DNA of 64,000 nt from Maribacter sp. PR1 (lineage in GTDB: Bacteria; Bacteroidota; Bacteroidia; Flavobacteriales; Flavobacteriaceae): NCBI RefSeq assembly GCF_028464145.1, contig NZ_JAQPCG010000002.1:124001-188000 (forward strand). The letters are read 5' to 3'. Position numbers and translations under genes: made by a program. Below are positions 5,637-45,670 of this stretch, in pieces (positions within the stretch are counted from its first letter, which is position 1; every line of letters starts with the position of its first letter). The notes beneath the pieces are model-generated. The model was given only the letters and a program-made list of their open reading frames with translations, was not told the origin of the DNA and did no database searches.

Positions 5637-7589
5637 TTAATTCTTAGGAGCCATATTGGGTAATTTAATTGTAAAAGTAGACCCCATATTTAGTTCTGAC
5701 TCCAGCGATACCGAACCCCGTAGCTTTTCAAGAATCTCCTGAACTATAAATAATCCAATACCAGAACCCATGACTTTGGCAGTGGCCCTATAGAACATAT
5801 TATAAATTTTGGTCTGACTTTCTTTATCAATACCCATACCATTGTCCTTAATAATTATAGAGGCCTCTTTGCTATTTATGATTACATTGATCCAAATCGA
5901 AGGGCTGCGCTTTTCCAGATCATGATATTTGATGGCATTGGAAATAAAATTATTTAATAGAACAGTTACTCTTCTTTTATCTGAGAAAAAAGGTTCTTTA
6001 TTGTTGATCTCTTTAACCACATTAATACCACTAGTGTTTTTTAGATACCATAAATCTTCTAACGACCTGTCAATTAAGGTACTAAAATTTATTTTCTCTA
6101 TTTTAACATCGAGGTGCTTATTTTGAGAATATTGTATTATTTCTCCGATAAAATCATCTAAGCGAGTAATGGAGTTTTCCATCATGTTAAGATTAACCAA
6201 TTTTTCAGACTCCGACTCCTCTTTTTTCATAATATCTACCAAGCCCAAAAGTGATGTTAGCGGGGCTCTTAACTCATGAGAGGCACTGTATACAAAGCTG
6301 TCTAACTCCGAGTTGGTTTTTTTTAGCTCTCTGTTTTTATTCTCGAGTTTTTTTCTTTCCTCTTTCCTTTCGGAAATATCCCGGACAATACCCAATATAA
6401 CCCCATCATTTAATTTTTTAGCGCTAACCTCACCATAAAAAGAAGATTTGTCCTTGCGCAATAATTGCCTTTCGGAAAGAACGGACTGCCCCAAGTTTAG
6501 TTCTTGAAACCTGATTGGGAGGTTTTCCAACTCTTCATTGGTGGCCAGATTTTTAATATTTTGTTTGAGCAATTCACTTTTTGAATAACCAAACATTTCT
6601 ACCCCACGGATATTGGCATCAATCATATTTCCATTAAAATCCGTTAAAAAAATACCGTCAGAGGCTTGTTCTATAAGTGATTTAAATTTTTGCTCGCTTT
6701 CCCTTAAGAGCAGTGTTTTATCCTCTACCATTTTCTTGAGTTTTATAGGACGTTCCAGTATGGAATTTGTATAAAAACCAGCGAGAATAGAAAGAAAAAC
6801 ACCCAGTATACCTAGGGCGAGGACACCACCAAGAGCAAAGCTCTTATTCGAAATCACATAAAGTTTCCACTCCCCATTGTAATCTGTGATAGAGCGGTTT
6901 AACGCGTTTTCCTGAAGTTTTTTTTGTGAAGAAAAAAATATTTTTTCGGACCCGTCTGGATTAACCTTTGAAAGTTGATAAGAGTACTGACTTTGCTCTA
7001 GGGAATCCAAGGAAATTGCAGATAATAAGGTAGATAACTTTATTACTGCTGCCGCAAAGCCAGAAAACTCATTATTTGTATAAATTGGAGTGCGGCAGAC
7101 AAAACCAGAACCACCTTGTTTTAAATTTATTGGTCCGGCAATATAATATTCACCTTTTTCAATGGTTCTGACCGCCCCAGGTTTTCCCACGGAGTCCATT
7201 AAAATGTTAAAGCCCAAGACTTCATTTTCTTCTATTGGGTAGACATGGGTAATAACTCCAGAACTATCCACAAGCTCAAGTGCGTCAACACTGGTATTCG
7301 TTTTCAACAGTAACTGGGATATATTAGAAAAATCTTGGGGGACACCATAGTTTTCTACTAAAAAGGCCAGACTTTGCGTACTTGAAAACCCTTGGTTCAA
7401 AACATTTTTAATCTCTCTGTCAATGCGGGTGGCTTGTCTACTAACCCCATCTTCCTCGGAACTCTTAAGGATAAGATATCTTTGATAGGCTACAAACGTA
7501 GTTATACTTAGGATTATTAGAAACACCAATAAACCTGGGATTACAGGAGAACTTAGTTTTATTTTTTTTAAAGGGTTTCTCATCACCAT
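5637..7589 (-). CDS. CHASE-PAS sensor histidine kinase
   Basis: 650 residues. Helix 1 lies near residues 16-36. An extracytoplasmic CHASE-type domain follows, with the typical LKQGGSGFVCRTPIY segment. Helix 2 is near 250-275, then a PAS domain (FKSLIEQASDGIFLTDFNG) and a HisKA domain with phospho-acceptor His in SASHELRAPLTSL. The HATPase_c N and G boxes are NNFISNAIKYH and GSGIGLFIV. It senses an unknown external ligand through CHASE and phosphorylates itself. The receiver protein 7 nt downstream is the obvious phosphate acceptor. Confidence 0.92.
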   Translation of the reverse strand: MVMRNPLKKIKLSSPVIPGLLVFLIILSITTFVAYQRYLILKSSEEDGVSRQATRIDREIKNVLNQGFSSTQSLAFLVENYGVPQDFSNISQLLLKTNTSVDALELVDSSGVITHVYPIEENEVLGFNILMDSVGKPGAVRTIEKGEYYIAGPINLKQGGSGFVCRTPIYTNNEFSGFAAAVIKLSTLLSAISLDSLEQSQYSYQLSKVNPDGSEKIFFSSQKKLQENALNRSITDYNGEWKLYVISNKSFALGGVLALGILGVFLSILAGFYTNSILERPIKLKKMVEDKTLLLRESEQKFKSLIEQASDGIFLTDFNGNMIDANIRGVEMFGYSKSELLKQNIKNLATNEELENLPIRFQELNLGQSVLSERQLLRKDKSSFYGEVSAKKLNDGVILGIVRDISERKEERKKLENKNRELKKTNSELDSFVYSASHELRAPLTSLLGLVDIMKKEESESEKLVNLNMMENSITRLDDFIGEIIQYSQNKHLDVKIEKINFSTLIDRSLEDLWYLKNTSGINVVKEINNKEPFFSDKRRVTVLLNNFISNAIKYHDLEKRSPSIWINVIINSKEASIIIKDNGMGIDKESQTKIYNMFYRATAKVMGSGIGLFIVQEILEKLRGSVSLESELNMGSTFTIKLPNMAPKN

Positions 7590-14452: not shown

Positions 14453-16861
14453 GTGAAACCAATACTGCTATTTATCGTAGCCGCACTTATATGTACACCA
14501 GTTGCGTTTTCCCAGTCTTTCCAACTTTCCGGCAAGGTAAAGGACGATGTTGGCGAACCAATTCCATTTGCTTCGGTTTTTTTATTGCAGGCCAAGGACT
14601 CCTCTATGGTCAAAGGGACTTCTGCAGATGAGTTTGGAGCCTTTTTAGTAGAAAACATTACCCCGGGGATTTATTTTTTGAAAGCATCTTATATAGGACA
14701 AACTTCGGGAGCTCTTCCTCTTGATATACGTTCAGATACTAAAATTGGGGCGCTTATAATCCCCCAACAGGCGGAGGAATTGGATGAGGTTATCGTGGTA
14801 TCTGGCAGGCCGAAGGTAGAACGAAAGGTGGACAGAATAGTTTTTAACGTTGAAAATACAGTACTTTCCCAAAGTTCTTCCTGGGACATACTAAGGCAGA
14901 CGCCAGGGGTTATTACCATGCAGGACGAGCTTCAGATTCGAAATCAGCCTGCCGTGGTTTATATTAATGACCGTAAGGTTCAGCTATCCCCGGCAGAGGT
15001 GAGAAGCCTTTTGGAAAATTACCAAGGGCAAAACATTAAATCCATTGAGGTTATCAACAACCCACCGGCAAAATATGATGCCGAAGGAGGAGCGGTTTTG
15101 AATATAGTTACTAACAAGAATATTTCTTTGGGTTACAAAGGAAATATCAACACAAATTATACACAGGGCATATTCCCAAAATTCAATTTTGGCACATCTC
15201 ATTTTTATAAAACAAAAAAATTAAATGTTAATGCGAGTTATTCGTACGCCCCAAGGAAAGATTTTAGAGACGTTAAAAATGAAACAAATTTCATAAATAA
15301 TACAGGAGTTTTTTCCAGATGGGATACCGATTTTGATAGAACCAATAGGTTTAAAACGCATAATGGAGGGCTTACGGTAGATTACGCTTTTAATGACCGA
15401 AATGAAATCAACCTAACATCCAATATGCAAATTTCGCCAGAACGGGAGTATAATAATTTTCAACAAACCCTTATTACCAATGCGGCCGGAGCTTTGGACT
15501 CCACATTGACCACCGAAAGTTTTTTGGACGAGACAAAAAATAATATTTCCGGAGATTTAACCTTTAAACACCGATTCAAGAAAAGCGGTGCCATTTCTTT
15601 CAATGGGCATTATACCAATTTTGATCTAACAAGAACACAACGCGCCAGCTCCAATTATACTTTGCCCTTTAGTAGCTTTATTCGTAACTATAGCTTTTTT
15701 ACCGATGCCAAGCAGGATATAGAAATTATTACCGCTCAGGTAGACTATAACGGTCTATTGGGGACGGTTGGGCTTGAGACCGGGTTAAAGACCTCCCTGA
15801 TCAATTCACAAAGCCAATTGTCATTTTTTACAGAAAATAACGGTCAGGTATTTGTACCCGAGCTATCGGATAATTACTTGTACGATGAGAACGTATATGC
15901 GGCCTATATTAGCGCTTCAAAGGATTGGGAAAAATGGAGCCTAAAAGCGGGAATAAGGGCGGAACACACCCTTAGCTCCGGAAACTCCCTTGCCCTTGCC
16001 CAAGTAAACAACCTTGAGTATTTTGAGCTTTTTCCTTCTGTATATTTATTACACAACATAAATGAGAACCATAGCTTGTCTTTGGATTACTCCAGGAAAC
16101 TGGAAAGACCTAGATATGAGGACTTAAACCCGTTCAGGACATTTATAAATGAGAATATCTTTTATGAAGGCAACCCTAATCTTGTTCCTAATTTCAGCAA
16201 TAATTTCAATCTTAATTATACCCTTAACCAAGAATATTTCTTTGATTTTTACTACCGGGACAATGGTAATTATATTTCTACTTTGTCTTTTCAGGACAAT
16301 GAAAATCAGGTTTTACGGGATGTGACCCAGAACGTCCTAGAAAGCACCTCCTATGGCTTTGATTTTAACTATGGTAAATCCGTGAGTAACAATTGGTATC
16401 TCTACAGCTATATTTCCATATTTCATGAGGATGAGACCTTCTTGGCTTTGGAGAGCGATGCTTTTTCGGCAAAAAATGAGGTTAATGGCTTTTATTTAGA
16501 CCTTACCAATTATTTAACGCTCTCCAAGGACGGTACTTTTAAAGGGGAATTGGGGTTAGTCTATTTATCTGGTTTTTTGTCCGGTTCCTATAAAATGTCC
16601 GAAACGACCAACCTAACCTTCGGGCTCCAGAAATCTTTTTGGAACAGAAGGGCAGAACTAAGCCTTAACTTCAACGATATTTTGGGCAAAGCAAACCCTA
16701 GGTACGCTTCAAGATATTTAAATCAGGACAACGCCTATCTTGCGATTCCGGAAACTCAAAACTTTAGACTTTCCTTCACCTATAACTTTGGGAACTTTAG
16801 GCTTGAGGACAATGAGCGACAAATTGAAAAATCGGAAAGAGACCGTATCGGTTCCGAATAA
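14453..16861 (+). CDS. Outer-membrane beta-barrel (TonB-receptor-like, OMP_b-brl_3) protein
   Basis: About 802 residues if translation begins at the GTG at 14453, which directly opens a signal peptide (KPILLFIVAALICTPVAFSQ). The frame is open to another GTG at 14345, but that would put 36 charged residues before the signal. Order: signal, carboxypeptidase-D regulatory-like domain (FQLSGKVKDD...), plug domain (WDILRQTPGVITM... EVINNPPAKYDAEGG), and a barrel ending in FRLSFTYNFG. The substrate is unknown; this family often handles peptides or glycans. It is a tandem paralogue of the next gene. Confidence 0.85.
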   Translation: MKPILLFIVAALICTPVAFSQSFQLSGKVKDDVGEPIPFASVFLLQAKDSSMVKGTSADEFGAFLVENITPGIYFLKASYIGQTSGALPLDIRSDTKIGALIIPQQAEELDEVIVVSGRPKVERKVDRIVFNVENTVLSQSSSWDILRQTPGVITMQDELQIRNQPAVVYINDRKVQLSPAEVRSLLENYQGQNIKSIEVINNPPAKYDAEGGAVLNIVTNKNISLGYKGNINTNYTQGIFPKFNFGTSHFYKTKKLNVNASYSYAPRKDFRDVKNETNFINNTGVFSRWDTDFDRTNRFKTHNGGLTVDYAFNDRNEINLTSNMQISPEREYNNFQQTLITNAAGALDSTLTTESFLDETKNNISGDLTFKHRFKKSGAISFNGHYTNFDLTRTQRASSNYTLPFSSFIRNYSFFTDAKQDIEIITAQVDYNGLLGTVGLETGLKTSLINSQSQLSFFTENNGQVFVPELSDNYLYDENVYAAYISASKDWEKWSLKAGIRAEHTLSSGNSLALAQVNNLEYFELFPSVYLLHNINENHSLSLDYSRKLERPRYEDLNPFRTFINENIFYEGNPNLVPNFSNNFNLNYTLNQEYFFDFYYRDNGNYISTLSFQDNENQVLRDVTQNVLESTSYGFDFNYGKSVSNNWYLYSYISIFHEDETFLALESDAFSAKNEVNGFYLDLTNYLTLSKDGTFKGELGLVYLSGFLSGSYKMSETTNLTFGLQKSFWNRRAELSLNFNDILGKANPRYASRYLNQDNAYLAIPETQNFRLSFTYNFGNFRLEDNERQIEKSERDRIGSE

Positions 16862-16963: not shown

Positions 16964-19372
16964 ATGAACAACGCATTAAGTACGCTTATCTTCTTTTTAC
17001 TACTGACCACTATTACTTTGGCCCAAGATTTCGAGGTTTCGGGAAGGGTAAAAGACCAAAACAACCTGCCTCTCGTTTTTGCCAATGTTTTACTTAAAAA
17101 CAAGGACTCCGTTCTATTGAAAGGATCAGCAACCGATGAAGAAGGGTTGTTCAAGATTGAAAACATAAAGGCGGGAACATACTTATTGTCGGCCAGCTAT
17201 TTGGACAATTTAAGCGAAACACTGGTTTTAACGGTCACTTCGGATGTTTCTTTGGACGATTTGATTATTGAACAAGCGGAGATGGAATTGGATGAGGTCG
17301 AAGTCACATTTAAAAAACCTACTATTGAACAAAAGGCGGACCGATTGGTTTTTAACGTGGTAAACACCTCACTGGCCCAAGGCAATATTTGGGATATTCT
17401 TAAACAGACGCCAGGGGTTATTATCATTAATGATAAAATAAACATAAAAGGCAGTTCCAACATTGGGGTAATGATCAATGGAAAATTGGTGAACATTCCA
17501 CAATCAGATATCGTGAATCTTTTATCCGGAAGTTCGGGAAACAATGTAGAATCTGTAGAAGTCATCTTAAACCCTCCGGCAAAATATAGCGCTGAAGGCG
17601 GGCTTCTACTAAATATCAAAATGAAAAAAAACCTGATAGCCGGGTATAATGGTTCCATTTACAATAGATATACACAAGCAGTGTTTCCTAAACATATGAT
17701 TGGCACGGATCACTTTTTCAAGGGAAAGAAAACGGATTTTACCCTAACCTACAGTTTTAGGCAAAACAAGAATTTGAACCGATTTACGGACGTTACCAAT
17801 TTTTTTGACACGAGTAATACGGTCGATGAGGTCTGGACGACCGAGCAAAAGACCATAAATAGGAGTAAGCAGCATAATATCAGTGGTTTTTTTGACTATC
17901 AAATCAACGATAAGAATAGCCTGAGCTTTTCTACCATCAATTCTTTTTCGGTCCCCGCGAACAGGTTTATCACATCGGAAACTTTAATTGAGGACACGGC
18001 TGGAAATCTGGATTCGAGTTTCTATACAACCAACAATTCGGATTACGATGTTTTTAATACGGCATACTACTTGGATTGGACCCATCGATTTAAAAAGAAG
18101 GGAGAAAATATCACCTTGGCAAGCAATTATACCTATTATGACTACGATAGGGGACAGGACTTGAACACGGATTTTTTTGATACCGATGGTGAAGTAACGG
18201 GAGAAAACGATTTCACAACACATTCTGGCCAAAAAACATCGCTTTATAGTGCTCAGGTGGATTACACCAACCCTATTAAAGAAAACTCCACACTGGAAAC
18301 AGGCCTACGCTATTCTGGTATTAGCTCTGAATCCACCATAACCCAAGAGGGTTTCGACAGAACACAACCAGGAATTAATCCGACCGAGGCCGGGGTGTTC
18401 GACTACAAAGAAAAAATTATGGCCGGTTATGTTAGCTTAAACAATAGTTGGAAGGATTGGCAATTAAATATGGGGCTACGTTCAGAGTACACCAAAACGG
18501 AAGGCGACTTGGATACTTCTGTCAACCCTGTGAAAAATTCGTATCTCGAGTTTTTCCCCTCCGTGTCCTTACAACACAAATTGAGCGACAAACATAACTT
18601 GGCGTTGCGCTATTATAGAAGGATTACCAGACCCACGTATAGTGACCTTAACCCTTTTCAATATTTTCAGAGCAATAATGCCGTCGTAGAAGGAAATCCC
18701 TACTTGAGACCAGCTACAAGAAACTATGTTTCTGTGGAGTATAATTTTGACCGTTCCTACTCCTTGGAAGTGTATTATTTCCATAAAAAGAATGACTTTT
18801 TTGAGCAAGTGGTTCAGGATAATGAAACGAACCTACTTCGTTTTTTGAGCGTTAATTTGGAATCCAATATTACTTATGGCGCAGAGTTTCGGTGGAATAA
18901 GGGGCTTACAAAATTTTGGGATACGTATTTACTTTTAAGTTATTACTATAAGGAAAACGGATTTACGGATATAGATACCGGGGCCATTTTGGATAATAGT
19001 ATATGGACGAGTAATATACGCTTCAATAATTATTTTACACTTTTGAAGGATCGTTCGCTTTATGCCGATGTATTATTTAGATACTCCGCGCCAACCGTAT
19101 TTGGTAATTCCAATAGAGAATCTACCAGTCAACTAACGCTGTCCTTTAGCAAAAGCATTTTAAAAAGAAGGGCATCCATCTCTTTTTCGATCGAAGATGT
19201 GTTTAATGATGGAAATTACTTTTCGACGAGGGATTACCTGAATCAGGACAACAGCTCTTTTTCCAGGCGCGAAACACGTTTATTTTTTGTTGGATTCCGA
19301 TACAAATTCGGGAACAATAGAATTCGGGACAACAAAAAACAAAAAAGTACGGATGAAGGGGAAAGGATTTAA
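16964..19372 (+). CDS. Outer-membrane beta-barrel (TonB-receptor-like, OMP_b-brl_3) protein, tandem paralogue
   Basis: About 802 residues from the ATG at 16964, which begins the signal peptide NNALSTLIFFLLLTTITLAQ. The open frame reaches back to a TTG at 16931, but that adds only non-signal residues. The plan matches the preceding protein: a CarboxypepD-like domain (FEVSGRVKDQN), a plug with WDILKQTPGVIII and EVILNPPAKYSAEGG, and a barrel ending in FVGFRYKFG. The two genes are separated by about 100 nt and look like an old tandem duplication with different substrate specificity. Its stop lies 4 nt from the stop of the convergent small membrane protein. Confidence 0.87.
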   Translation: MNNALSTLIFFLLLTTITLAQDFEVSGRVKDQNNLPLVFANVLLKNKDSVLLKGSATDEEGLFKIENIKAGTYLLSASYLDNLSETLVLTVTSDVSLDDLIIEQAEMELDEVEVTFKKPTIEQKADRLVFNVVNTSLAQGNIWDILKQTPGVIIINDKINIKGSSNIGVMINGKLVNIPQSDIVNLLSGSSGNNVESVEVILNPPAKYSAEGGLLLNIKMKKNLIAGYNGSIYNRYTQAVFPKHMIGTDHFFKGKKTDFTLTYSFRQNKNLNRFTDVTNFFDTSNTVDEVWTTEQKTINRSKQHNISGFFDYQINDKNSLSFSTINSFSVPANRFITSETLIEDTAGNLDSSFYTTNNSDYDVFNTAYYLDWTHRFKKKGENITLASNYTYYDYDRGQDLNTDFFDTDGEVTGENDFTTHSGQKTSLYSAQVDYTNPIKENSTLETGLRYSGISSESTITQEGFDRTQPGINPTEAGVFDYKEKIMAGYVSLNNSWKDWQLNMGLRSEYTKTEGDLDTSVNPVKNSYLEFFPSVSLQHKLSDKHNLALRYYRRITRPTYSDLNPFQYFQSNNAVVEGNPYLRPATRNYVSVEYNFDRSYSLEVYYFHKKNDFFEQVVQDNETNLLRFLSVNLESNITYGAEFRWNKGLTKFWDTYLLLSYYYKENGFTDIDTGAILDNSIWTSNIRFNNYFTLLKDRSLYADVLFRYSAPTVFGNSNRESTSQLTLSFSKSILKRRASISFSIEDVFNDGNYFSTRDYLNQDNSSFSRRETRLFFVGFRYKFGNNRIRDNKKQKSTDEGERI

Positions 19373-36057: not shown

Positions 36058-37263
36058 ATGGAAATCATACCCTACATCAGGGTCGGGACCACTTTTTACA
36101 AGCTGGTCAGAATTCCGACCATATCTGGACATTTCAACGAGCAGCTGGTCCCTTGGAACGAGCACATCATCAAGCAGGACCATGGTAAGGACTATCTGGG
36201 CAAGGTACCCAAATATGATGGGTTTGCGTGCATTCCGTGCCATGTCAATTTCAAAAAGGAACACCATGGTTTCTACAATACTTATTCCCCTTTGACGCAT
36301 GAACCGAAAGAGGGATGTATAATAAGGACACGGGGCTTTTTGAAGCATATCTTCGGAAATCAACTGGAGCTGGGACTGGACTATCTGAAACTCCTGTACC
36401 AAAGACCGGTGCAGGTGCTCCCCATCCTCTGTCTGGTATCCACCGAAAGAAACACAGGGAAAAGCACGTTCCTCAAATGGCTCAAGGAAATTTTTGGCAA
36501 CAACCTGACCTATCTGACCAACGACAGCTTTGCAAGCCAGTTCAATGCGGATTGGGCCAACAAACTTTTAATATGCATAGACGAGGTGCTGTTCAACAAG
36601 GAGGAACTCACCGAGCGCATCAAATACCTGAGTACCACCAACCGGAACAAACTGGAGGCCAAGGGAAAGGACAAACGGGAAGTGGAATTCTTTGGTAAAT
36701 TTATACTGTGCAGCAACAACGAGGACAGTTTTATCAAGATCGATGTCCATGAGACCCGGTTCTGGGTGAGGAAGATCCCATCCCTTAAAAAGGAGGACAC
36801 CGATTTTTTGGACCAGTTGGCCCAGGAAGTACCGGCTTTTTTGGATTTCCTTTCAAAAAGGGAATACAGCACAAAACAAAGAACACGAATGTGGTTCACA
36901 GCTAAACAGGTTTATACCCCTGCCCTGAAGAAACTGGTGAACAATAACCGGAACCGGGTAGAGAAGGAATTGGCCAGCTTATTGCTAAGTGCCATGGAAA
37001 AGTTCGAGATGGACTCGGTTGACCTTTGTCCCATCGATGCCCTGCACATGCTCAACCGTACGCGGGTCAAGACCGACCTGACCCAATTGAGGCGGTTGCT
37101 GAAAAAGGATTGGAAGCTGGACAACCAGCCCAATTCCAACAAGTACCAAAAGATTACCATCTGGAACAACGGTGAGATCAATACCGAGGACGCCAAAGGG
37201 AGGTACTTTACCATAAAAAAGGAATTTTTGGTCCAAAATTTTGATGATTTGATGACAGATTGA
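36058..37263 (+). CDS. P4-type primase-helicase family protein (DUF5906-like)
   Basis: 401 residues. A Walker A motif, STERNTGKSTFLKWL (about 128-142), and an acidic Walker B, LLICIDEVLFN, are visible, followed by a sensor-like ILCSNNEDSFIK. This matches the superfamily 3 helicase domain of P4-like and plasmid primases. It probably unwinds DNA at the origin of the element. The iteron cluster lies directly after it and before the TOPRIM gene, and the last repeat unit falls close to its 3' end. Codon use is visibly richer in GC than in the cargo. Confidence 0.82.
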   Translation: MEIIPYIRVGTTFYKLVRIPTISGHFNEQLVPWNEHIIKQDHGKDYLGKVPKYDGFACIPCHVNFKKEHHGFYNTYSPLTHEPKEGCIIRTRGFLKHIFGNQLELGLDYLKLLYQRPVQVLPILCLVSTERNTGKSTFLKWLKEIFGNNLTYLTNDSFASQFNADWANKLLICIDEVLFNKEELTERIKYLSTTNRNKLEAKGKDKREVEFFGKFILCSNNEDSFIKIDVHETRFWVRKIPSLKKEDTDFLDQLAQEVPAFLDFLSKREYSTKQRTRMWFTAKQVYTPALKKLVNNNRNRVEKELASLLLSAMEKFEMDSVDLCPIDALHMLNRTRVKTDLTQLRRLLKKDWKLDNQPNSNKYQKITIWNNGEINTEDAKGRYFTIKKEFLVQNFDDLMTD

Positions 37264-37438
37264 TATAAGCTCAGTGTTTATAAGGGTTTAGGCTGTCATC
37301 ACTTTGTCATCATTCTGTCATCAAAATAAAAAATGATGACAGGGACAATGAAGAAAAAAACAAAAACGATGATACGATGACAAAATGATGACGGAGGAAC
37401 AAGCAGTATTTATAAGGCCTCCCAGAGGTTTGTCATCA
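37250..37438. repeat. Iteron-like cluster of TGTCATCA units, candidate origin
   Basis: TGTCATCA occurs at 37294, 37305 and 37316, exactly 11 bp apart, and again at 37431. The reverse complement TGATGACA occurs at 37250 and 37334, and one-mismatch versions at 37375 and 37386 (again 11 bp apart). The direct triplet with helical-turn spacing, flanked by inverted copies and lying between primase-helicase and TOPRIM genes, is the layout of a replication origin or a Rep autoregulation site. Confidence 0.65.
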
Positions 37439-37468
37439 AATCATCAAAAATCGATTAAAAACAGAACC

Positions 37469-38371
37469 ATGAAAGAAAAAAGATTGGACTGCGAAAAAGC
37501 CCGCAACATTGACATCGTTTCCACGCTGGCCAATTTGGGGCACTTTCCAGTCCGGAAAACGGAAAAAGAAGCTTGGTTCCTCAGTCCATTGCGGAAGGAG
37601 ACCCAAGCCTCTTTCAAGGTATCGTTGAAACAGAACTACTGGATAGATTTCGGGACCTTCGAGGGAGGCAGTACCATTGATTTGGTGATGAAAATGGAGA
37701 ACTGTTCCGTAAAGGAGGCATTGGAACGATTGTCCGGGAACACGGACCATTTTTCTTTTCACCGGCAACCCGTTCCCAATGAAAAGAAAGATGGTGAAAG
37801 CCAAATTGAAATCATCGAGGTAAAGGAAATCGAACACCGGGCCCTGCAAGACTATCTGCAGTCCAGAAAGATCTCGACCAAGACCGCAAGAAAACTTTGC
37901 AAGGAGGTCCACTATGAAATAGGTGGTCGAAAATACTTTGCCATCGGACTGTGGAACAGGTCCGGGGGCTGGGAGCTGCGAAACAGCTATTGGAAGGGGT
38001 CCACCTCGCCAAAGGATGTTTCGATGATGGTGAAGGGATCAAAGAAATTGGCCATTACGGAAGGCATGTTCGATATGCTCACCCTAATTGAGCTGAAACC
38101 GGATATCGGGAACAGCCATGATCTTTTGGTATTAAACACTACGGCCTTCGTAAAACGGATGATCACAGAAATAGGGGAATATGAAAATGTGGAGCTGTTT
38201 CTTGATAGGGACAAAACGGGACTGGGGATGATGGATCTGTTATTGGAAAAATGCCCGAACAGTAGGGATATGTCATTTCTCTATGAGGGTTTTAAGGACA
38301 TGAACGAATGGAAGGTAAAAAGCGGGAAGGATGAAGTTCGGCAACGAATTCAAGATGTGTCATTGTCATGA
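37469..38371 (+). CDS. TOPRIM/CHC2-like primase protein of the mobile element
   Basis: About 300 residues from the ATG at 37469 (MKEKRLDCEKARNIDIV). The open frame begins at 37385, but that start lies inside the iteron repeats and adds residues that do not look like protein. The N-terminal about 85 residues resemble a CHC2-type DNA-binding domain without the full zinc cysteine set (WFLSPLRKETQASF, DFGTFEGGSTIDLV). The C-terminal TOPRIM domain shows LAITEGMFDML and VELFLDRDKTG. It probably primes replication together with the helicase encoded upstream. Confidence 0.82.
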   Translation: MKEKRLDCEKARNIDIVSTLANLGHFPVRKTEKEAWFLSPLRKETQASFKVSLKQNYWIDFGTFEGGSTIDLVMKMENCSVKEALERLSGNTDHFSFHRQPVPNEKKDGESQIEIIEVKEIEHRALQDYLQSRKISTKTARKLCKEVHYEIGGRKYFAIGLWNRSGGWELRNSYWKGSTSPKDVSMMVKGSKKLAITEGMFDMLTLIELKPDIGNSHDLLVLNTTAFVKRMITEIGEYENVELFLDRDKTGLGMMDLLLEKCPNSRDMSFLYEGFKDMNEWKVKSGKDEVRQRIQDVSLS

Positions 38372-38416
38372 CAAATCTTGCTTTGGCTCCCGAAGGTCGC
38401 AAAAGATAAAGTAAAA

Positions 38417-38713
38417 ATGAAAAAAGAGTTCGTCCAGTTCCGATGCTCGGTCTACGAGAAGAAACTGCTAAAGGTAAAGGCCCGTAAGAGCGGCCTTTCC
38501 ATCAGTGAGTACTGCCGACGTGCGGCCTTCGAAGACCGGATAGTGGAGCGGATGACCGACGAACAGATAGAGGCCTATAAGCTATTGGTCAAATACCAGC
38601 GGAATTTCAAATTGATCACCAACATGTTCCGAAAGCGGAACCCCAGATTGGCAGAGGAAACTGCCCAATTGGCCAAGGAGATACGACAACACCTTTTAAG
38701 CTTCAGGAAATGA
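38417..38713 (+). CDS. MobC-like relaxosome accessory protein
   Basis: 98 residues from the ATG at 38417 (MKKEFVQFRCSVYEKK). A ribbon-helix-helix-like N-terminus (KARKSGLSISEYCRRAAF) and a helical C-terminus match MobC/BmgB-type proteins that help the relaxase open oriT. The stop overlaps the relaxase start by 4 nt. The longer frame from 38378 is read from the end of the TOPRIM gene and is not needed. Confidence 0.82.
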   Translation: MKKEFVQFRCSVYEKKLLKVKARKSGLSISEYCRRAAFEDRIVERMTDEQIEAYKLLVKYQRNFKLITNMFRKRNPRLAEETAQLAKEIRQHLLSFRK

Positions 38714-39579
38714 TAGGCATGGGAAAATCCATATCGCACACCGCAGCCTCCATGAGCTACGGAATGAACCAGGAGAAGGAAGCCGAGATCATCCACAGCC
38801 AATATCTGGCCGGGGAGACCCCAAGGGAGATCACCGAGGAGTTCAGGATCATCCAAGAACAGAACGAGCTTTGTAGGAAGAACACGCTCAGCTTTGTGCT
38901 AAGTCCCACCATCGAGGACGGCAGGAAACTGGAAAGGGAACGACTCAAGGAAATGACCGAGCGGTTCCTCAAGGAAATGAACCTCAAACAGCACCAGGCC
39001 GTTGCCTTTGTCCATAGGGACAAGGAACATGTGCACGTCCATCTGTATGCCAACCGGATAAACTTTCAGGGTAAGGCCTACAATGACAGCTTCATCGGAA
39101 AGCGGAGCCAGCAAGTGGCCGAGCGGGTGGCCAGACAGATGGACCTGACCACGGTAAGGGAGGTACAACAGGAAAAACTGTACAGGATACAACATATCCG
39201 CGCTCAAATACAGAAGATCCATGAAAAGGTCATGGGCAAGGAACGGCCAAGGGGTTTTGACCAGTATATCAAATCAATGGAGCAGAACAATGTAAAGGTC
39301 ATCCCGAGCATCAACAGACAGAACCAATTGCAGGGCTTCCGTTTTGAGTACAAAGGAACGAACCTCAAGGGAAGCGAAGTACACCGATCCATGTCCATGG
39401 GAAGGATAGCGGGCCAAATGAACTTTGAAAAGGAAAGGGCACAGCGGATCGCCAAGGACAAAAGCATGGAGCTTTTGGGCAGGGCAGTGAATGTCCCGAC
39501 AAGTCTGACCCAGACCATCATAAAGAAAACCATCAAGCTGGCTATCAAGTTGGTCAGGGACACCGGAATAGGAATCTAA
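38710..39579 (+). CDS. Relaxase/mobilization nuclease (MobA/VirD2 family)
   Basis: 289 residues. The three-histidine metal site of relaxases is clear: HRDKEHVHVHLYANRIN (about 107-123). A candidate catalytic Tyr is Tyr17 in ASMSYGMN. This is the short relaxase of mobilizable Bacteroidota elements. It nicks oriT, which should lie near the mob genes, and leads the strand through a helper conjugation pore. It is translationally coupled to MobC. Confidence 0.92.
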   Translation: MIGMGKSISHTAASMSYGMNQEKEAEIIHSQYLAGETPREITEEFRIIQEQNELCRKNTLSFVLSPTIEDGRKLERERLKEMTERFLKEMNLKQHQAVAFVHRDKEHVHVHLYANRINFQGKAYNDSFIGKRSQQVAERVARQMDLTTVREVQQEKLYRIQHIRAQIQKIHEKVMGKERPRGFDQYIKSMEQNNVKVIPSINRQNQLQGFRFEYKGTNLKGSEVHRSMSMGRIAGQMNFEKERAQRIAKDKSMELLGRAVNVPTSLTQTIIKKTIKLAIKLVRDTGIGI

Positions 39580-39589
39580 ATATAATACT

Positions 39590-40045
39590 ATGGCAAAACT
39601 GGATGAAATAGCGGAACTGTTGACCGAGGAGATCAACGGGTTTGAGAAGAGCATTGGCAGATTGGAAAGGGTACATGAAAATTTGCGGAACCTTCCGTTA
39701 AAACCCGACACCACTGAGATAAATGCGCTTCTAAAAAAATGCGGTAACAATCAAAGAAGGATGGTTGAGGAACAGCTAAGACTGATGCAAAGGATCCTTC
39801 ACAAGGTGGAGCGGTCCATTATGTTACCAAGTTGGGCCATTAAATTTTTATGGGGATTGTTGGTCAGTGTTCTATTGGTCCTTGGTTTTTCGGTCTTTCA
39901 GTTATCAAGGTTATCCAAGAAGGAAGAGGCTGCATTTGGAAAAGGACGGGACAGTACCATGGGACATTTTGAAAGATTCTTTGACGAGAGCCCTCAGGTA
40001 AAGGAGCTCTACCTCAAATGGAGGGAGGAAAATGGCAAAAAGTAG
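39590..40045 (+). CDS. Mob-associated membrane protein
   Basis: 151 residues. A helical, probably coiled-coil N-terminal half, then one membrane helix (FLWGLLVSVLLVLGFSVFQL, about 84-103), then a short charged tail. It begins 10 nt after the relaxase stop and ends the mobilization operon. Similar proteins follow relaxase genes in other Bacteroidota elements; their role is not known to me. Confidence 0.72.
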   Translation: MAKLDEIAELLTEEINGFEKSIGRLERVHENLRNLPLKPDTTEINALLKKCGNNQRRMVEEQLRLMQRILHKVERSIMLPSWAIKFLWGLLVSVLLVLGFSVFQLSRLSKKEEAAFGKGRDSTMGHFERFFDESPQVKELYLKWREENGKK

Positions 40046-40066: not shown

Positions 40067-40205
40067 TGATTGACGCTTATCTTCCCGAACACTACAAAAA
40101 TAGGCCAGGGTCCACGCGCTGAAGTTGAGGTAAGGATTTGGGGTAAATTATGTTAAAAAGTGTCTTTAAATAAACCACTAATAGTTCACAAATTATACTT
40201 CAAAT

Positions 40206-40235
40206 TTGTTTCATACGAATCTTTTCGTAACTTTG
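40206..40235 (+). promoter_or_regulatory. Promoter and BlaI-type operator of the blaI/M56 operon
   Basis: TTG at 40206-40208, 19 nt, then TAACTTTG at 40228-40235 fits the Bacteroidota promoter consensus. An inverted repeat TACGA-N6-TCGTA (40214-40229) lies between the boxes and touches the -7 element, so a bound repressor would block the promoter. The same block occurs on the minus strand at 45015-45030 with the same distance to its -7 box. Confidence 0.7.
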
Positions 40236-40250
40236 TTCGACCTAGTTTAA

Positions 40251-40652
40251 ATGACTGATGTAGTGAAAAATACCCCAACAAAATCCGAACTCGAAATCCT
40301 CCAAGTATTGTGGAAACTTGGCCCTTCAACTGTTCGGCAGGTAAACGATGAAGTCAATAAGGAAAGGGATGTAAAGTATACATCCACTTTGAAGCTCATG
40401 CAGATTATGATTGAAAAGGAAATTTTGGAGAGGGATGATAGCCAAATGAAGCATGTGTACAAACCCATTGAAGAAGAGCAAAAAACCAAGGGTCATATGC
40501 TTAATAATTTTGTAAAGAATTTTTATGGAGGATCTGCCAGTAAATTGATTATGCAGCTCACCGGAAACAAAAAAACATCCGAAAAAGAGCTTAGGGAAAT
40601 AAAGGAGATTTTGACCAGATTGGAAGAAGACAACAGTTCTACAGACCGTTGA
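40251..40652 (+). CDS. BlaI/MecI/CopY-family transcriptional repressor
   Basis: 133 residues. The BlaI winged helix is visible (TKSELEILQVLWKLGPSTVRQ, then KYTSTLKLMQIMIEKEILERD). The C-terminal half provides dimerisation. Its partner is the M56 protein 21 nt downstream. Such repressors are cut or released when the membrane M56 peptidase is activated. The dyad that overlaps its promoter is the probable operator, and the copy at 45015 suggests that it also controls the divergent receptor operon. Confidence 0.93.
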   Translation: MTDVVKNTPTKSELEILQVLWKLGPSTVRQVNDEVNKERDVKYTSTLKLMQIMIEKEILERDDSQMKHVYKPIEEEQKTKGHMLNNFVKNFYGGSASKLIMQLTGNKKTSEKELREIKEILTRLEEDNSSTDR

Positions 40653-40673
40653 AAGGTATTTTACAAATAAGAA

Positions 40674-41972
40674 ATGAATCCGGATATAATTCTTAACGCT
40701 ATTTACAAAACCCTTCTTCACTCCTTATGGCAGGGGGGGTTGTTAGCAATTGTTGGCGGTCTGATTATTTTTTTTGGGAAACATCTTAAACCTTCAATTA
40801 AGTATTTGTTGCTCACTTTTTCACTTTTCCTTTTTCTAGGAGGCACAATCTACACCTTCTTAAGCGAATTGAATCAGACCAATCGTTTTCTTTCTGAAAA
40901 GGCATACCCATCCTCAAAAACTTTGCTCGAACCCAGTTTAAAAGGCGAGGAAAATTTATTGGTTTCGGTTGCCGATAAAGTATATACTTTGTACGATTAT
41001 TATTTGGCACATTACGATAGGGTATTCGTATTTATCTGGTTCATTGTTTTATGTTTTAAGGTGGCATTGATGTCTATCGATGTTTTTCATATTCGCAAGC
41101 TTCAAACAACAAAGATCAAACTCGTTGATTCCAAAATTGAAAAAATTCTTTTATCCCTTAATGATAGGTTAAGTCTGAAAAAAAGTATCGGAGTTTTTGA
41201 ATCAGCAATAGCAAAAACACCTTTGGTAATAGGCGCCTTAAAACCAATAATACTTCTTCCTGTGGGGTTGGCAACATCGATGACCATTGAACAAATTGAA
41301 GCAATTATGGCCCACGAAATGGCCCATATCAAGAGAAAGGATTTTTTGGTAAACTTGATCCAATCGGTAATGGAGATTATCTTCTTCTTTAACATACCAG
41401 TACTTTGGGTTACATCTTTGATTCGAAATGAAAGAGAACTATGCTGTGATGATATTGCTATAAACATAACGGGCAACAAAATAATATATGTCAACACGCT
41501 GGTTGAATGTATTGAATACAGACCACCTATCTATGGCATAGCCTTTGCAGGGAACAAAAACTTACTTTTGAAAAGGGTAAAGCGTATTTTGAGCATACAA
41601 AAACCCTCGTTAAACTCTTTTGACAAGCTATTTATTGGCCTATGCCTAGTCTGCGCAATTTTTTTAACAAGTATACTTGGTACGAAACCAACCAACGGAA
41701 GCAACCACTACTTTTTTAGTTCCTTTATTGATGGTTCAAAAGCCTCTAAGGACGTTGACAGGGTAAATTCCAATGCAATAATCGAACAATTAAAAAAATC
41801 AAATATAATTTCTGATTTGGGAAATTTTTCGGTCAAGATTACAAACTATGCTCTTTATGTCAATGGGAATAAACAGAGCGAAACACTTCATAGACAAATA
41901 TTGAAGGACTTTGTAAAGGATTATCAGTATAGACTACACTTCACCACAACCGTAAAAAGCGGATCCGATTAG
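40674..41972 (+). CDS. M56 family (BlaR1-like) membrane metallopeptidase sensor
   Basis: 432 residues. Four membrane segments (about 12-34, 43-63, 114-135, 320-340) and the M56 zinc motif HEMAHIKRKDF (about residue 213), with the extra acidic ligand in NERELCCDDIAI. After the last helix there are only about 95 periplasmic residues, so it has no penicillin-binding sensor domain and is unlikely to sense beta-lactams. Its last 65 residues are homologous to the C-terminus of the lipoprotein encoded at 44527-44973. The likely substrate of its cytoplasmic peptidase is the BlaI-like repressor upstream. Confidence 0.9.
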   Translation: MNPDIILNAIYKTLLHSLWQGGLLAIVGGLIIFFGKHLKPSIKYLLLTFSLFLFLGGTIYTFLSELNQTNRFLSEKAYPSSKTLLEPSLKGEENLLVSVADKVYTLYDYYLAHYDRVFVFIWFIVLCFKVALMSIDVFHIRKLQTTKIKLVDSKIEKILLSLNDRLSLKKSIGVFESAIAKTPLVIGALKPIILLPVGLATSMTIEQIEAIMAHEMAHIKRKDFLVNLIQSVMEIIFFFNIPVLWVTSLIRNERELCCDDIAINITGNKIIYVNTLVECIEYRPPIYGIAFAGNKNLLLKRVKRILSIQKPSLNSFDKLFIGLCLVCAIFLTSILGTKPTNGSNHYFFSSFIDGSKASKDVDRVNSNAIIEQLKKSNIISDLGNFSVKITNYALYVNGNKQSETLHRQILKDFVKDYQYRLHFTTTVKSGSD

Positions 41973-42014
41973 TTTGTACCTTACTATTTATGAATACTAT
42001 TGGTCTAAATCAAA

Positions 42015-44459
42015 TTAGTGCTTAACACGATTCTTTTCATCTTCAGCCCCTTTCGATTGATGTCTTGGTTTGCTTGAAAACTCCTTACCCAACCGAAGAC
42101 GATAGCTTATAAGAATCCTTCGTGTATCCCCTAAATTTTTATATCGGGCATCAGTACTGTCCAGATTTCTAATTTCCCCTCTGTTTATATTTGTATATAG
42201 CAAATCACTTCCGGTAATACTCAAAAAGGACCTTTCACTTAGCTTTTTGGAAATCCCAATATTCAAGGCTCCTTTACTATTATATAAAAATTGCCCACTT
42301 GTTACTTTTGTTCGATAATTGCCATCCAATTGGATAACCCAATCCTTAGGCAGTTCAAAGGAACACAATCCCTGTAAATAACCGTTCGTACCTTTATGTT
42401 CCAATAAGCCATCATAGAAATTGCTTCTAATTCTAACGAAATCCAAAGAGCCATAGAATTGAAACCGAAGCCAATCGGTAACGTCGTAATTACCATCCAA
42501 TGCAAAATTTATTAATTCCGTGCTACCAATATTCCCGGGGCGGCTGAAGTATAAACCATTCTCTATCTCGATAGTCTCATTAACCTGATTCTTGGAATAG
42601 CTATACCCCAAAGTTGCCGTGGTTCTTTTTTTCAGGATATAACTTAGCTCTACCTTGTTGGAAAAAGAAGGAAGCAGAAGTGGGTTTCCCACATAAAATG
42701 TGTACTTGTTCAGAGGTGTAATAAATGGGTTTAGGTCTTGATAATAGGGGCGGTCGATTCTTCTTCCATAATTAATCCTTAATTGATGATTCTCCAAGGA
42801 GTCAATTTTATACAGCGCAAAAAAAGTAGGGAATAGCCCGTCATATGACCTTCTGAAAACCGAGTCGGGTTTTACAACATTACCCAATTGATATCCTTTT
42901 GAGATTGTCTTTTCATATCTAAGTCCCAGTTGTAGACTGAGTTTACTATATTCTTTGCTCAAATTCACATATCCTGCATGAACATGTTCGTCATATAAAA
43001 ATTGATTGGTCTTATCATAATCGGGAATCAAATCAGCTTCTATTTTTGAGAAATAATCGGCCGAATTATCTGTTTCGGTATAGGATGATTTAGTCCCTAT
43101 TGAAAGTATCACGGCATTATTGAATGGATGGGTATAATCGGCCTTTGCGGATGATATTTTTAGTTTAGAACTTAGATTACCGATTAGAACTTCTTGGGAA
43201 GTCAGTTCATCTTGATTGTAATAAGTCCGGTCATCGAAGTTTTGTTCATTCCCGGTTTCATAAATAATATGGTCCAAGTCCACTCCAAGGCTGGGGCCAT
43301 CTTCTCGAAAGTTATGCCTTAAATTTAAATTGATACTAGCATTGCTAAAACTTTCGTCCTCGCCGTTTCTGGTTGTGGTTAAAGAATCCAATACTCCGTT
43401 GGCATCGGTAAAAGTACTAGTTGAATTGGTTGTGCTTTCAGGATGTCTTGATATTCCCCCGACCACTATTCCCCAAGTTGTATTGTCCGTCTGATAAAAA
43501 TCGGCACCTATCGTTGTCGTAAATTGATACCCTTTTCTCCTAATAAACGAGTACTGATCAAAATCTGTAAGCGTGTAACCGACTTCATCCTTGAAATTCC
43601 GATCAACATAAAAATTGACAAATCCATTTCTAGTGCCGTATCCAAAATTGCCGTAAACATTGATTTTATTTTTTCTGAAATTGAAGTTTAGACCGTCCCT
43701 GGTTTCACTGTATTTATGTTGTATAAGACTCAGGTTCAATCCCAAATTGAATCCGACGATGTTATTTCTTTTTGTCTTAATGTTGATAATGCCCGCATTG
43801 CCCGCTGCATCGTATTTTGCCGGCGGGTTCGTCATAATTTCGATAGCTTCCAAGGATGAACTCGGAAGTGAACTAAGGTAGCTAGCCAAATCAGCTCCGG
43901 AGAGGTAGGTAGGTTTATCGTCGATATAAACCGTTACCCCCGGTCTCCCTTTAAGGTTTATCCCACCGTTATCGTCCACCCTTAAGCCAGGTGATTTCTC
44001 CAGTACTTCCAATGCAGAGATGCCTTCATTGCTAATGACGGCATCAACATTAACCACAGTGCGGTCCATCTTTTGTTCTACCAATGGTTTTTTTTGAATT
44101 AGGACGACTTCTTCCAATTCAAGATTTTGATTCTCAACCACAAAATCATCAAGTTCTACATTGGTATTTATGGTGGTTATATGTATTGAATTCGGGAATT
44201 TTGTCATTCTCTCATAGAACGAAAAATATATCTCATAATCCCCAATCCTTATTTCTTCAAACTCGAATTTCCCGTTTATATCGGTTAACTCTATTTTCTC
44301 AATGTCGGTGGAGTCTCCTTGCTCTGATAGGGAAACATAACCCTCCAGTGGTGTGCCGTTTTCATCGACTACCCTGCCCTTTATGGTTTGAGCTTGAACT
44401 GCAACTATTTTTATAAAGTTAAGAACAAGAATTAGAAATACTATTTTTCGATAATCCAT
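42015..44459 (-). CDS. Outer-membrane beta-barrel (TonB-receptor-like, OMP_b-brl_3) protein
   Basis: 814 residues. Signal peptide (IVFLILVLNFIKIVAVQAQ), carboxypeptidase-D-like domain (TIKGRVVDENGTPLEGYVS), plug domain (ALEVLEKSPGLRVDDNGG and GVTVYIDDKPTYLSG), then a barrel that ends with ISYRLRLGKEF plus a short charged tail. It follows the lipoprotein gene at 44527-44973 on the same strand and is likely expressed with it from the promoter near 45010. It converges with the M56 gene. The substrate is unknown. Confidence 0.87.
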   Translation of the reverse strand: MDYRKIVFLILVLNFIKIVAVQAQTIKGRVVDENGTPLEGYVSLSEQGDSTDIEKIELTDINGKFEFEEIRIGDYEIYFSFYERMTKFPNSIHITTINTNVELDDFVVENQNLELEEVVLIQKKPLVEQKMDRTVVNVDAVISNEGISALEVLEKSPGLRVDDNGGINLKGRPGVTVYIDDKPTYLSGADLASYLSSLPSSSLEAIEIMTNPPAKYDAAGNAGIINIKTKRNNIVGFNLGLNLSLIQHKYSETRDGLNFNFRKNKINVYGNFGYGTRNGFVNFYVDRNFKDEVGYTLTDFDQYSFIRRKGYQFTTTIGADFYQTDNTTWGIVVGGISRHPESTTNSTSTFTDANGVLDSLTTTRNGEDESFSNASINLNLRHNFREDGPSLGVDLDHIIYETGNEQNFDDRTYYNQDELTSQEVLIGNLSSKLKISSAKADYTHPFNNAVILSIGTKSSYTETDNSADYFSKIEADLIPDYDKTNQFLYDEHVHAGYVNLSKEYSKLSLQLGLRYEKTISKGYQLGNVVKPDSVFRRSYDGLFPTFFALYKIDSLENHQLRINYGRRIDRPYYQDLNPFITPLNKYTFYVGNPLLLPSFSNKVELSYILKKRTTATLGYSYSKNQVNETIEIENGLYFSRPGNIGSTELINFALDGNYDVTDWLRFQFYGSLDFVRIRSNFYDGLLEHKGTNGYLQGLCSFELPKDWVIQLDGNYRTKVTSGQFLYNSKGALNIGISKKLSERSFLSITGSDLLYTNINRGEIRNLDSTDARYKNLGDTRRILISYRLRLGKEFSSKPRHQSKGAEDEKNRVKH

Positions 44460-44526
44460 AATGGAATTGATTTTAGGGTAAATATTGAAAGGAATGCTTC
44501 ATTTGAATATCAAGACGGCGATAAAA

Positions 44527-44973
44527 TCAATCCGTTGAAACGGTATAGGTAAGTTGTAAGTGCCCTTTAGGATTTTGGACAAAGTTGTCAATGATATGAC
44601 GATGGACTTTATCGGGTTGCCTTTTACCATCAATATGGAGTTCATCGTTGGTGAGTTCAATTTTATAATTCATCGGGTCACTTATCAAATGAAGTTTCTG
44701 TAGATACTCAATAACTTTTTCCCTTGATACCCGTGACATTTCTTGAACTTTGTCCGATGGGTCGGTATTGGTTGTTGACATATACTTTGTTTCAATGTCG
44801 TTTTCAGAAGTATATTTATTTTCCTTGCAGGACATATTGAACGACAGCATAAAAAGAAGTGTGAACGATAGAATGCTGACTAGTTTTGCTGTGAAATTTG
44901 ATTTTGGGCTCCTAATCTTTCCCTTATACCGTGCAAAAAATGAACTGTTATTAAATTCTTGTAGTTTTTTCAT
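44527..44973 (-). CDS. Membrane-anchored protein carrying the M56 sensor-tail domain
   Basis: 148 residues from the ATG at 44973 (MKKLQEFNNSSFFARYKG). A basic cytoplasmic start is followed by one hydrophobic segment ending in FMLSFNMSCKEN, so it is a lipoprotein or single-span protein. The last about 60 residues match the C-terminus of the M56 protein at 40674-41972; shared positions include IxxLxxxxxISD, NxxLxxxGxxQ, HxxIxxxFV and LxxTxTV. A free copy of the sensor domain, controlled by the same operator, could compete with or modulate the M56 sensor. That is inference; the similarity itself can be read directly. Confidence 0.75.
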   Translation of the reverse strand: MKKLQEFNNSSFFARYKGKIRSPKSNFTAKLVSILSFTLLFMLSFNMSCKENKYTSENDIETKYMSTTNTDPSDKVQEMSRVSREKVIEYLQKLHLISDPMNYKIELTNDELHIDGKRQPDKVHRHIIDNFVQNPKGHLQLTYTVSTD

Positions 44974-45008
44974 GATGAATATTTTTAATGATTGTGAAAT
45001 CAATAATT

Positions 45009-45030
45009 CAAAGGTACGATATTTTTCGTA
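45009..45030 (-). promoter_or_regulatory. Second copy of the BlaI-type promoter-operator
   Basis: On the minus strand the -7 element is TACCTTTG (45016-45009), and it is overlapped by TACGA-N6-TCGTA (45030-45015). Relative to the -7 box the dyad has exactly the same position as at 40214-40235. The start codon of the lipoprotein gene is 36 nt downstream of the -7 box. Confidence 0.7.
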
Positions 45031-45224
45031 CGAAAAAAATATTATGATTTAAAAGGGGGTTGAATCATTATCTTCGAAGCAGATTTTCATGAAATTTAAT
45101 TAGGAAATGGAGGTATGGAACTTGGCTTTAATGAACTTATTCTGGGTATAAGCCTATTTTTATAATTCCAATTAGGAATAAAACAGATATTGACGTGCGT
45201 TAAAATTTCTTTTGGAAACAAAAA

Positions 45225-45277: not shown

Positions 45278-45670
45278 TTATTTATTCTTTAGAAGTTGTT
45301 CCAAATAACTGACCTTATCCTTTTCAGCTTGAACAAGTCGTTCATAAAGTTCTACAACCTTGTCCAGGGGGTTAAAATTTGGCTGAACATTGATTGCATT
45401 AATAGTAGAACTGTCGTTACTGGTAAAAGTATTTGAAATAATATTAAGAACATTTTCCTCGGAAAAATTCTCAATTCCTTCCTTGGTCACACCCAAGGCC
45501 TTGGCAATCTCCTCCAACTTAGCATCGTCCACCTTCTCGCTGTTCTCTATGTTGGAAACGGCCTGTTGGCTGATGCCCAGTTCCTCGGCCAGGGTCTCCT
45601 GTTTCATGCCCCGTAGTTCCCGGATGCGCCCTATCTTTCTTCCGATATGGTTCTTGGTCTTGGTCTCCAT
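45278..45670 (-). CDS. XRE-family helix-turn-helix regulator
   Basis: 130 residues. An N-terminal Cro/CI-type HTH (IGRIRELRGMKQETLAEELG, then ISQQAVSNIENSE) is followed by a linker and a C-terminal coiled-coil (VVELYERLVQAEKDKVSYLEQ) for oligomerisation. It is divergent from the nucleotidyltransferase/HEPN gene and might regulate it. A TATATTTG box on the minus strand (45682-45675) lies 5 nt upstream of the start codon, so the transcript could be almost leaderless. Confidence 0.88.
   Translation of the reverse strand: METKTKNHIGRKIGRIRELRGMKQETLAEELGISQQAVSNIENSEKVDDAKLEEIAKALGVTKEGIENFSEENVLNIISNTFTSNDSSTINAINVQPNFNPLDKVVELYERLVQAEKDKVSYLEQLLKNK

Follow-up and report, generated by a model that had tools for sequence, protein, structure and literature searches.

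Two convergent gene pairs of Maribacter sp. PR1 with matching TACGA-N6-TCGTA operators, predicted to form one BlaI regulon with an outer-membrane receptor

We analysed a stretch of 64,000 nucleotides (nt) of Maribacter sp. PR1 (the window), in which a gene for a BlaI/MecI-type repressor (blaI) and a gene for an M56 metalloprotease run towards two genes of the opposite strand, coding for a small sensor-domain protein and for an outer-membrane receptor. Each pair has a promoter of its own, and both promoters, as read from the sequence, contain the inverted repeat TACGA-N6-TCGTA (hereafter the dyad). The features are given below from left to right (aa, amino acids); L- and G-numbers used further on are the locus and genome labels of this analysis.

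40205..40235, plus strand: promoter of the blaI/M56 unit, TTTG-N19-TAACTTTG, of the -33/-7 type
40214-40229, plus strand: operator 1, TACGA-N6-TCGTA (TACGAATCTTTTCGTA), overlapping the -7 box and kept at orthologous blaI genes
40228-40235, plus strand: -7 box of the blaI/M56 unit, TAACTTTG, overlapping the dyad end
40251..40652, plus strand: blaI, BlaI/MecI-type repressor of 133 aa (PF03965, 85 bits, cut-off 22.6)
40674..41972, plus strand: M56 metalloprotease of 432 aa (PF05569, 100.8 bits), with HEMAH at residue 214
42015..44459, minus strand: TonB-receptor-like outer-membrane protein of 814 aa with an OMP_b-brl_3 barrel (PF14905, 298.5 bits)
44527..44973, minus strand: membrane-anchored, stand-alone sensor-domain protein of 148 aa (first labelled a lipoprotein), with a domain in common with the M56 C-terminus
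45016-45009, minus strand: -7 box of the receptor unit, TACCTTTG, overlapping the dyad end as at the blaI unit
45030-45015, minus strand: operator 2, TACGA-N6-TCGTA (TACGAAAAATATCGTA), overlapping the -7 box
45009..45039, minus strand: promoter of the unit with sensor-domain protein and receptor, TTTT-N19-TACCTTTG

A first-pass annotation of this DNA had placed both dyads and both -7 boxes at these coordinates, and direct reading confirmed them. It had also claimed that the promoters align over 22 nt with equal spacing and that the dyad overlaps the -7 box in both units. Indeed, the 22-nt stretches align without gaps (17/22 letters identical, 5/22 different), the overlap is made in the same manner in both, and the five differing positions leave all four dyad arms intact. 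The TTTG at 40205-40208 lies 19 nt before the -7 box of the blaI unit, with TTTT in the same place at the receptor unit, and a TTTG-N19-TAnCTTTG layout is also readable in several relatives' blaI promoters. On one point the annotation was wrong: the units it called divergent are convergent, blaI/M56 running rightward to 41972 and the receptor unit leftward from 44973 to 42015, with the promoters at the outer ends of the pair, 4.8 kb apart.

By counting the dyad, we found that its presence inside the window is weak evidence when taken alone, since its near matches (3 with at most one mismatch, 0.95 expected) are as numerous in 9 of 100 shuffles of the window. This is what speaks for a chance likeness of the two promoters. 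However, the strict pattern of dyad plus -7 box (TACGANNNNNNTCSTANCTTNG) occurs at exactly two places genome-wide (reversed control: 0), both in the window, 4.8 kb from each other, and both before genes that share an operon elsewhere, which leaves chance with next to no probability. A genome search for the dyad with a TAnnTTTG box had been proposed in the first-pass annotation, for which many unrelated dyad copies would have spoken against the regulon; with the strict pattern it returned the two window sites only. The exact dyad itself is present at three places in the PR1 genome (4,727,315 bases; reversed-pattern control: 2), the third being inside a coding sequence read as an aromatic amino-acid ammonia-lyase. 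The description of the four genes as a closed regulon stands for exact matches in this genome, and the closure reaches no further than exact matches.

Among 31 relative genomes, the strict pattern matched at 20 places (reversed control: 5 over all 32 genomes), of which 17 lie directly before blaI-M56; the other three are before an orphan M56 gene, before a gene for a PF00144 hydrolase and at an unexplained place (L131). These counts refer to a pattern that ends in TTNG and misses many relatives' blaI promoters, which end in TTTA; 16 of the 32 genomes were matched, PR1 included.

Then, the dyad was searched upstream of related blaI genes, that is in the 260 bp before blaI and with at most one mismatch. 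Two sets were used: the top 80 blaI loci from scanning named genomes, chosen by protein likeness and not by operator, and a class set in which 395 genomes were searched for BlaI and 43 matched at E 1e-24 (PR1 included). In the first set the dyad lies upstream of 64 of the 80 genes (34 exact) compared to 4 of 1507 control stretches, which were drawn at random from the same loci and were not limited to intergenic DNA. In the class set it lies upstream of blaI in 27/29. Many related blaI genes have two or three tandem copies, and among the nearest relatives a blaI promoter of the kind TCGTACGAAAAATTTCCTACCTTTG is common, with the dyad ending within the -7 box. By its sequence, the window blaI also has in its own promoter the inverted repeat expected of this repressor family.

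Three other BlaI genes in the PR1 genome could suggest that a different regulator acts at one or both dyads, either one of these paralogs or an XRE protein such as that of 45278-45670. Yet all three paralogs have different upstream dyads, of the AACTA-N6-TAGTT type (L004 and L005) or CTACA-N2-TGTAG (L006), the TACGA dyad accompanies the BlaI clade of the window across genomes, and residue 44 of the window BlaI fits it (see below). We therefore regard another regulator as very improbable. At L004 (minus strand), the AACTA-N6-TAGTT dyads upstream of blaI are three in tandem and have the same 5-N6-5 geometry in other letters.

The window BlaI is 45-68% identical to its 30 relatives in an alignment of 31 rows (A1), which takes in one plasmid row and, of the 46 class matches from outside PR1, the 29 that have a locus. 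It matches the PDB chains 1sd4 and 1okr. Its residue 44, next to the conserved Y43, aligns with K43 of Staphylococcus aureus BlaI, a position on the recognition helix. By using one best-scored site per locus (110 loci, two of them unread), we compared residue 44 with the third base of the left and right half-sites. First, the pair of bases is A/A in 4/4 loci with M44, G/G in 3/3 loci with A44 and C/G in 7/7 loci with S44. Second, the 94 loci with T44 have C/C (56), C/G (21), C/A (1) or C/T (1), and 15 are without a site of the searched form. Third, in every locus with a site the third base of the left half-site tracks residue 44. In the BlaI tree, the loci with M44 fall into a single clade and those with A44 into two or more, so this covariation reflects few independent events. 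The window BlaI has T44 and thus fits the TAC half-sites of both dyads. The tree itself (92 rows, 136 columns) is weakly resolved and puts the window BlaI at an unresolved fork. At L096, L099, L101, L103, L105, L107 and L112, the recognition helix reads I-Y-T-S and another conserved element, close to ACGTACGTTTTNAATRCATA, precedes the blaI -7 box.

According to match scores, an M56 protein is encoded beside blaI in 80/80 loci, and in 25 of them a receptor-like open reading frame (ORF; E better than 1e-90) stands directly behind M56, split over two ORFs in L056. Of the 7 class blaI regions retrieved, 5 show this arrangement as well, and one of the other two ends at a contig edge. In a 41-row receptor tree, restricted to rows above 600 aa and excluding both L056 pieces, the window receptor is nested in the clade of operon receptors, with Mucilaginibacter and Pedobacter (support 99/98). 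By clade and operator, the BlaI, receptor and operator of the window belong with the blaI-M56-receptor group, as does its M56 by match scores only; what differs is that the window receptor is convergent with an operator of its own instead of lying directly behind M56 on the same strand. Moreover, 4 of the 5 BlaI rows nearest by path share their loci with the nearest receptors, and a joint descent of BlaI and receptor, as these trees suggest it, is likely though not certain.

As for the receptor protein, its CarboxypepD_reg-like and plug matches are below their cut-offs and no STN domain was matched at E 0.1 or better. Four paralogs in the PR1 genome are 26-30% identical to it. Two adjacent receptors in the window (14468-16795 and 16988-19327) are of the same barrel family, distantly related, and fall outside the operon-receptor clade. 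In one Hymenobacter locus, a large CBM9/DUF5916 protein, and not the receptor, is encoded behind M56 (L089:13136-15709), and ORFs of similar size follow in other Hymenobacter loci.

Each half of the second unit of the window has independent counterparts under the dyad elsewhere. An unlinked receptor gene (L190; 838 aa, E 9e-105) has two dyads, the second 157 bp before its start, and in the tree its product is sister to the operon receptors plus one further receptor (96/92). Unlinked sensor-domain genes with the dyad are L189 and L199 (two each) and L198 (one). Dyadobacter psychrophilus has an orphan M56 gene without blaI (L142, G707:C18:1124780) under a canonical operator-promoter; its blaI operon is on the same contig, at a distance of about 655 kb. 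In Flavobacterium endophyticum, a gene for a PF00144 serine hydrolase lies between a canonical operator and blaI-M56-receptor (L133, L075:8530-9968). In G671, the operator-promoter TACGAAATATATCGTACCTTTG precedes a thioredoxin-like gene (L202:6114; gene at 6193-7368), a possible further member of such a regulon.

Because the dyad is conserved at the blaI genes of relatives, the dyads of the paralogs differ and the half-site follows residue 44, we read both dyads as operators of this BlaI. We predict that the four genes are one derepressible regulon under this BlaI through two operators, with a probability of about 0.8. The idea of one repressor for both units, already put forward in the first-pass annotation, is thus supported by the position of the dyad at related blaI genes, by the receptor as a frequent third gene, by residue 44, by the deviating dyads of the paralogs and by the unlinked receptor and sensor-domain genes that share the dyad.

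Several observations weigh against this prediction. First, of the 86 T or S loci with a site, 30 have a right half-site, inside the -7 box, that deviates from TACGA. Second, the staphylococcal cleavage pair N101-F102 is Q-L in the window BlaI (this Q is found in at least 90% of the 31 A1 rows), so that BlaI may be cut elsewhere or be inactivated in a different way. Third, the 400 bp upstream of a convergent receptor of the same clade near the Sediminibacterium blaI operon (L048) contain no dyad (the best match has 4 mismatches), and the four-gene layout of the window was not met in any other locus inspected. Fourth, the exact dyad is not enriched by raw count in 22 class genomes (84 places against 147 for the reversed control), hence the operator argument rests on position and not on totals. 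Hand assignment covers 75 of these 84 places, and 30 of the 75 are without one; seven of the 30 were inspected, five being in coding sequence and two intergenic, one of them before an amidohydrolase-family gene and the other 500 bp off a RelA/SpoT gene. Among the assigned places, blaI genes account for 37 (three of them, in G625, at a distance of about 500 bp upstream), unlinked sensor-domain genes for 5, the unlinked receptor gene for 2 and the promoter of a thioredoxin-like gene for 1.

To the small protein, the first-pass annotation had given two labels. "Lipoprotein" is doubtful, since the cysteine is preceded by N-M-S, which does not make a good lipobox. It was also called a sensor-domain protein; by BLASTP, it carries the C-terminal domain of the M56 protease (27/85 identical, E 1e-14). 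The order of parts is also the same in the two proteins: a hydrophobic segment (the only one, 25-49, in the small protein; the last one, 312-340, in M56) is followed by the domain (about residues 359-424 in M56).

The likeness of the two units could also come from an inverted duplication that copied the blaI promoter, a piece of M56 and a receptor, in which case operator 2 would be an inherited fossil with weak regulation or none. The shared order of segment and domain is consistent with such a copy, as are the two domains of the window, which are reciprocal best among the copies compared (51 bits, 39 for the next), as a local duplication predicts. Operator 2 also resembles the canonical blaI promoter of relatives, its promoter being identical over 23 consecutive nt to that of Pedobacter sp. 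Leaf41 (L070). However, all dyad arms have stayed intact while the two stretches differ at 5/22 positions, unlinked receptor and sensor-domain genes retain the dyad as well, and the N-terminus of the small protein does not match the M56 membrane segment significantly (4.1 bits, E about 2). Also, an origin by duplication would be compatible with working control. Taken together, a fossil promoter seems unlikely.

The sensor domain matched no Pfam model, nor did the small protein match any Pfam family. With an iterated profile, we found the domain in 73 ORFs (89 copies) over 81 loci and the window. It mostly ends M56 proteins, in which it occurs once, twice or three times; ten loci have it on an ORF of its own behind M56. 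The domain alignment (A3) comprises 69 of the 87 copies from outside the window. Its predicted fold has a mean pLDDT of 73.6 and a pTM of 0.57, and a PDB search with it gave nothing better than E 0.69, so that we assign it to no fold. In the class sample it is present in 15 of 295 genomes, PR1 included. By our own reading of L152, L153, L154, L156 and L164, the domain also ends anti-sigma-like, single-pass membrane proteins, and therefore it may serve Bacteroidota as a general input module in the periplasm.

The BlaI and M56 families invite the interpretation of a classic beta-lactam-inducible bla system, and the operator of F. endophyticum (L075) does precede a serine hydrolase of the Beta-lactamase family (PF00144) in the same cluster. 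The window M56 has the M56 domain with HExxH that characterises BlaR1/MecR1. But it has no Pfam match to a penicillin-binding domain at E 0.1 and no SxxK after residue 336, and it reaches 107 bits with the BlaR1 model, whose cut-off is 400. No match to a beta-lactamase family was obtained with any of the four genes of the window, and the sensor domain is foreign to Pfam. On this domain content we rejected beta-lactam sensing, to which we give hardly any probability. A copper-responsive repressor was rejected too. CopY/TcrY copper repressors bind the metal at a cysteine site. The window BlaI is of the same superfamily (TIGR02698, 38.4 bits, cut-off 121.95) and contains no cysteine at all, and therefore no CopY-type metal site. 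BlaI-type proteins of Bizionia are described without the copper site (PMC11213822).

How the predicted regulon might work can be sketched from its parts. A BlaI dimer on TACGA-N6-TCGTA would sit over the spacer and the first part of the -7 box, and so would block RNA polymerase at both promoters. The active site of M56 is presumably cytoplasmic, as in BlaR1, and its C-terminal domain periplasmic. A signal from the periplasm or the outer membrane, read by this small domain, might activate M56, which might then inactivate BlaI, probably by cleavage. Both units would be switched on, the first yielding repressor and protease (feedback) and the second the receptor together with an exported extra copy of the sensor domain, which may modulate the signal. 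The receptor, usually the third gene of the operon, would here be placed under its own operator in the convergent unit.

More tentatively, occupancy of the receptor could be relayed to the C-terminal domain of M56 and from there to the destruction of BlaI, with the exported copy competing for the same partner and setting the threshold. This not yet described relay, in which the domain would have that general role in the periplasm of Bacteroidota and repressor and operator would follow a rule of one residue to one base, is a speculative extension of our data. A possibly similar relay is FecA-FecR-FecI, where a TonB receptor signals to transcription of its own gene via an inner-membrane protein whose C-terminal domain is periplasmic. 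FecIR-type signalling receptors have an N-terminal STN domain; here, no STN domain was matched, and a protease and a repressor take the place of anti-sigma and sigma factors.

The closest known systems are BlaI-BlaR1 and MecI-MecR1 of S. aureus and Bacillus licheniformis, which likewise pair a Penicillinase_R repressor with an M56 membrane protease. According to PMC3305447, such repressors shut off promoters and lose their activity once BlaR1 has been activated, the staphylococcal cleavage pair is N101-F102, and the BlaI/MecI operators are shared by the two transcription units of one divergon. In contrast, the window system has no penicillin-binding sensor domain and no beta-lactamase in the unit; its operator is TACGA-N6-TCGTA, the scissile N-F is replaced by Q-L, and an outer-membrane receptor is a frequent third gene. 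The regulons of Clostridium thermocellum BlaI_0696 and BlaI_1845 are small and consist of their own repressor/BlaR1 operons (PMC8457756). They are autoregulatory as well, but no outer-membrane receptor is reported there, whereas a second unit is included here.

In Bacteroidota, BlaI/M56 pairs are named after penicillin-resistance regulators (PMC10710014, PMC5294843; also a plasmid annotation), the Porphyromonas gingivalis tables list a BlaI and an M56 gene (PMC10470040), and BlaI is among the induced regulator families of Zobellia (PMC5613140). In the open-licence PMC texts, as far as these were accessible, no description was found of a TACGA-N6-TCGTA BlaI operator or of a blaI-M56-receptor operon in Bacteroidota. 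The predicted logic is of the BlaI/BlaR1 type, and what is new is the outer-membrane receptor as a frequent partner and the unnamed sensor domain. Our findings are suggestive of a function at the outer membrane and not of beta-lactam sensing, and with operator, receptor partner, sensor domain and residue-base covariation taken together, the targets of these repressors can be predicted in each genome.

The quartet starts right behind a mobilisation module, which is context and not part of the switch:

36058..40045, plus strand: mobilisation backbone (36058, 37385, 38378, relaxase 38710, DUF6730 39590), with Relaxase and DUF6730 assigned by Pfam

The relaxase is found in 35 of 299 family genomes (PR1 included). 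We inspected 20 further islands of 15-17 kb each, 19 from other genomes and one a second island of PR1. Relaxase is present in 20/20 and DUF6730 in 19/20, and no blaI, M56 or small protein (E 1e-5) and no receptor (E 1e-60) was found among them. The second copy of the mobilisation module in PR1, at G000:C1:813647-814513 (L239), stands without the quartet. The G+C content is 36.2% for the quartet, 46.3% for the mobilisation module and 44.3% for the right flank.

In the other 298 sampled family genomes, no near relative was found of BlaI (E 1e-22) or of the small protein (E 1e-8). The family Flavobacteriaceae is nevertheless not empty of this BlaI, since the named-genome scan brought up two Flavobacterium loci (L071 and L075) with BlaI at 61%. 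Among viral contigs, 127 pattern matches were obtained and none was confirmed, and 21 plasmid records gave matches, the best BlaI (52.8%) being from Spirosoma. The quartet looks like imported cargo, and judging from the receptor tree its source may have been Sphingobacteriaceae-like.

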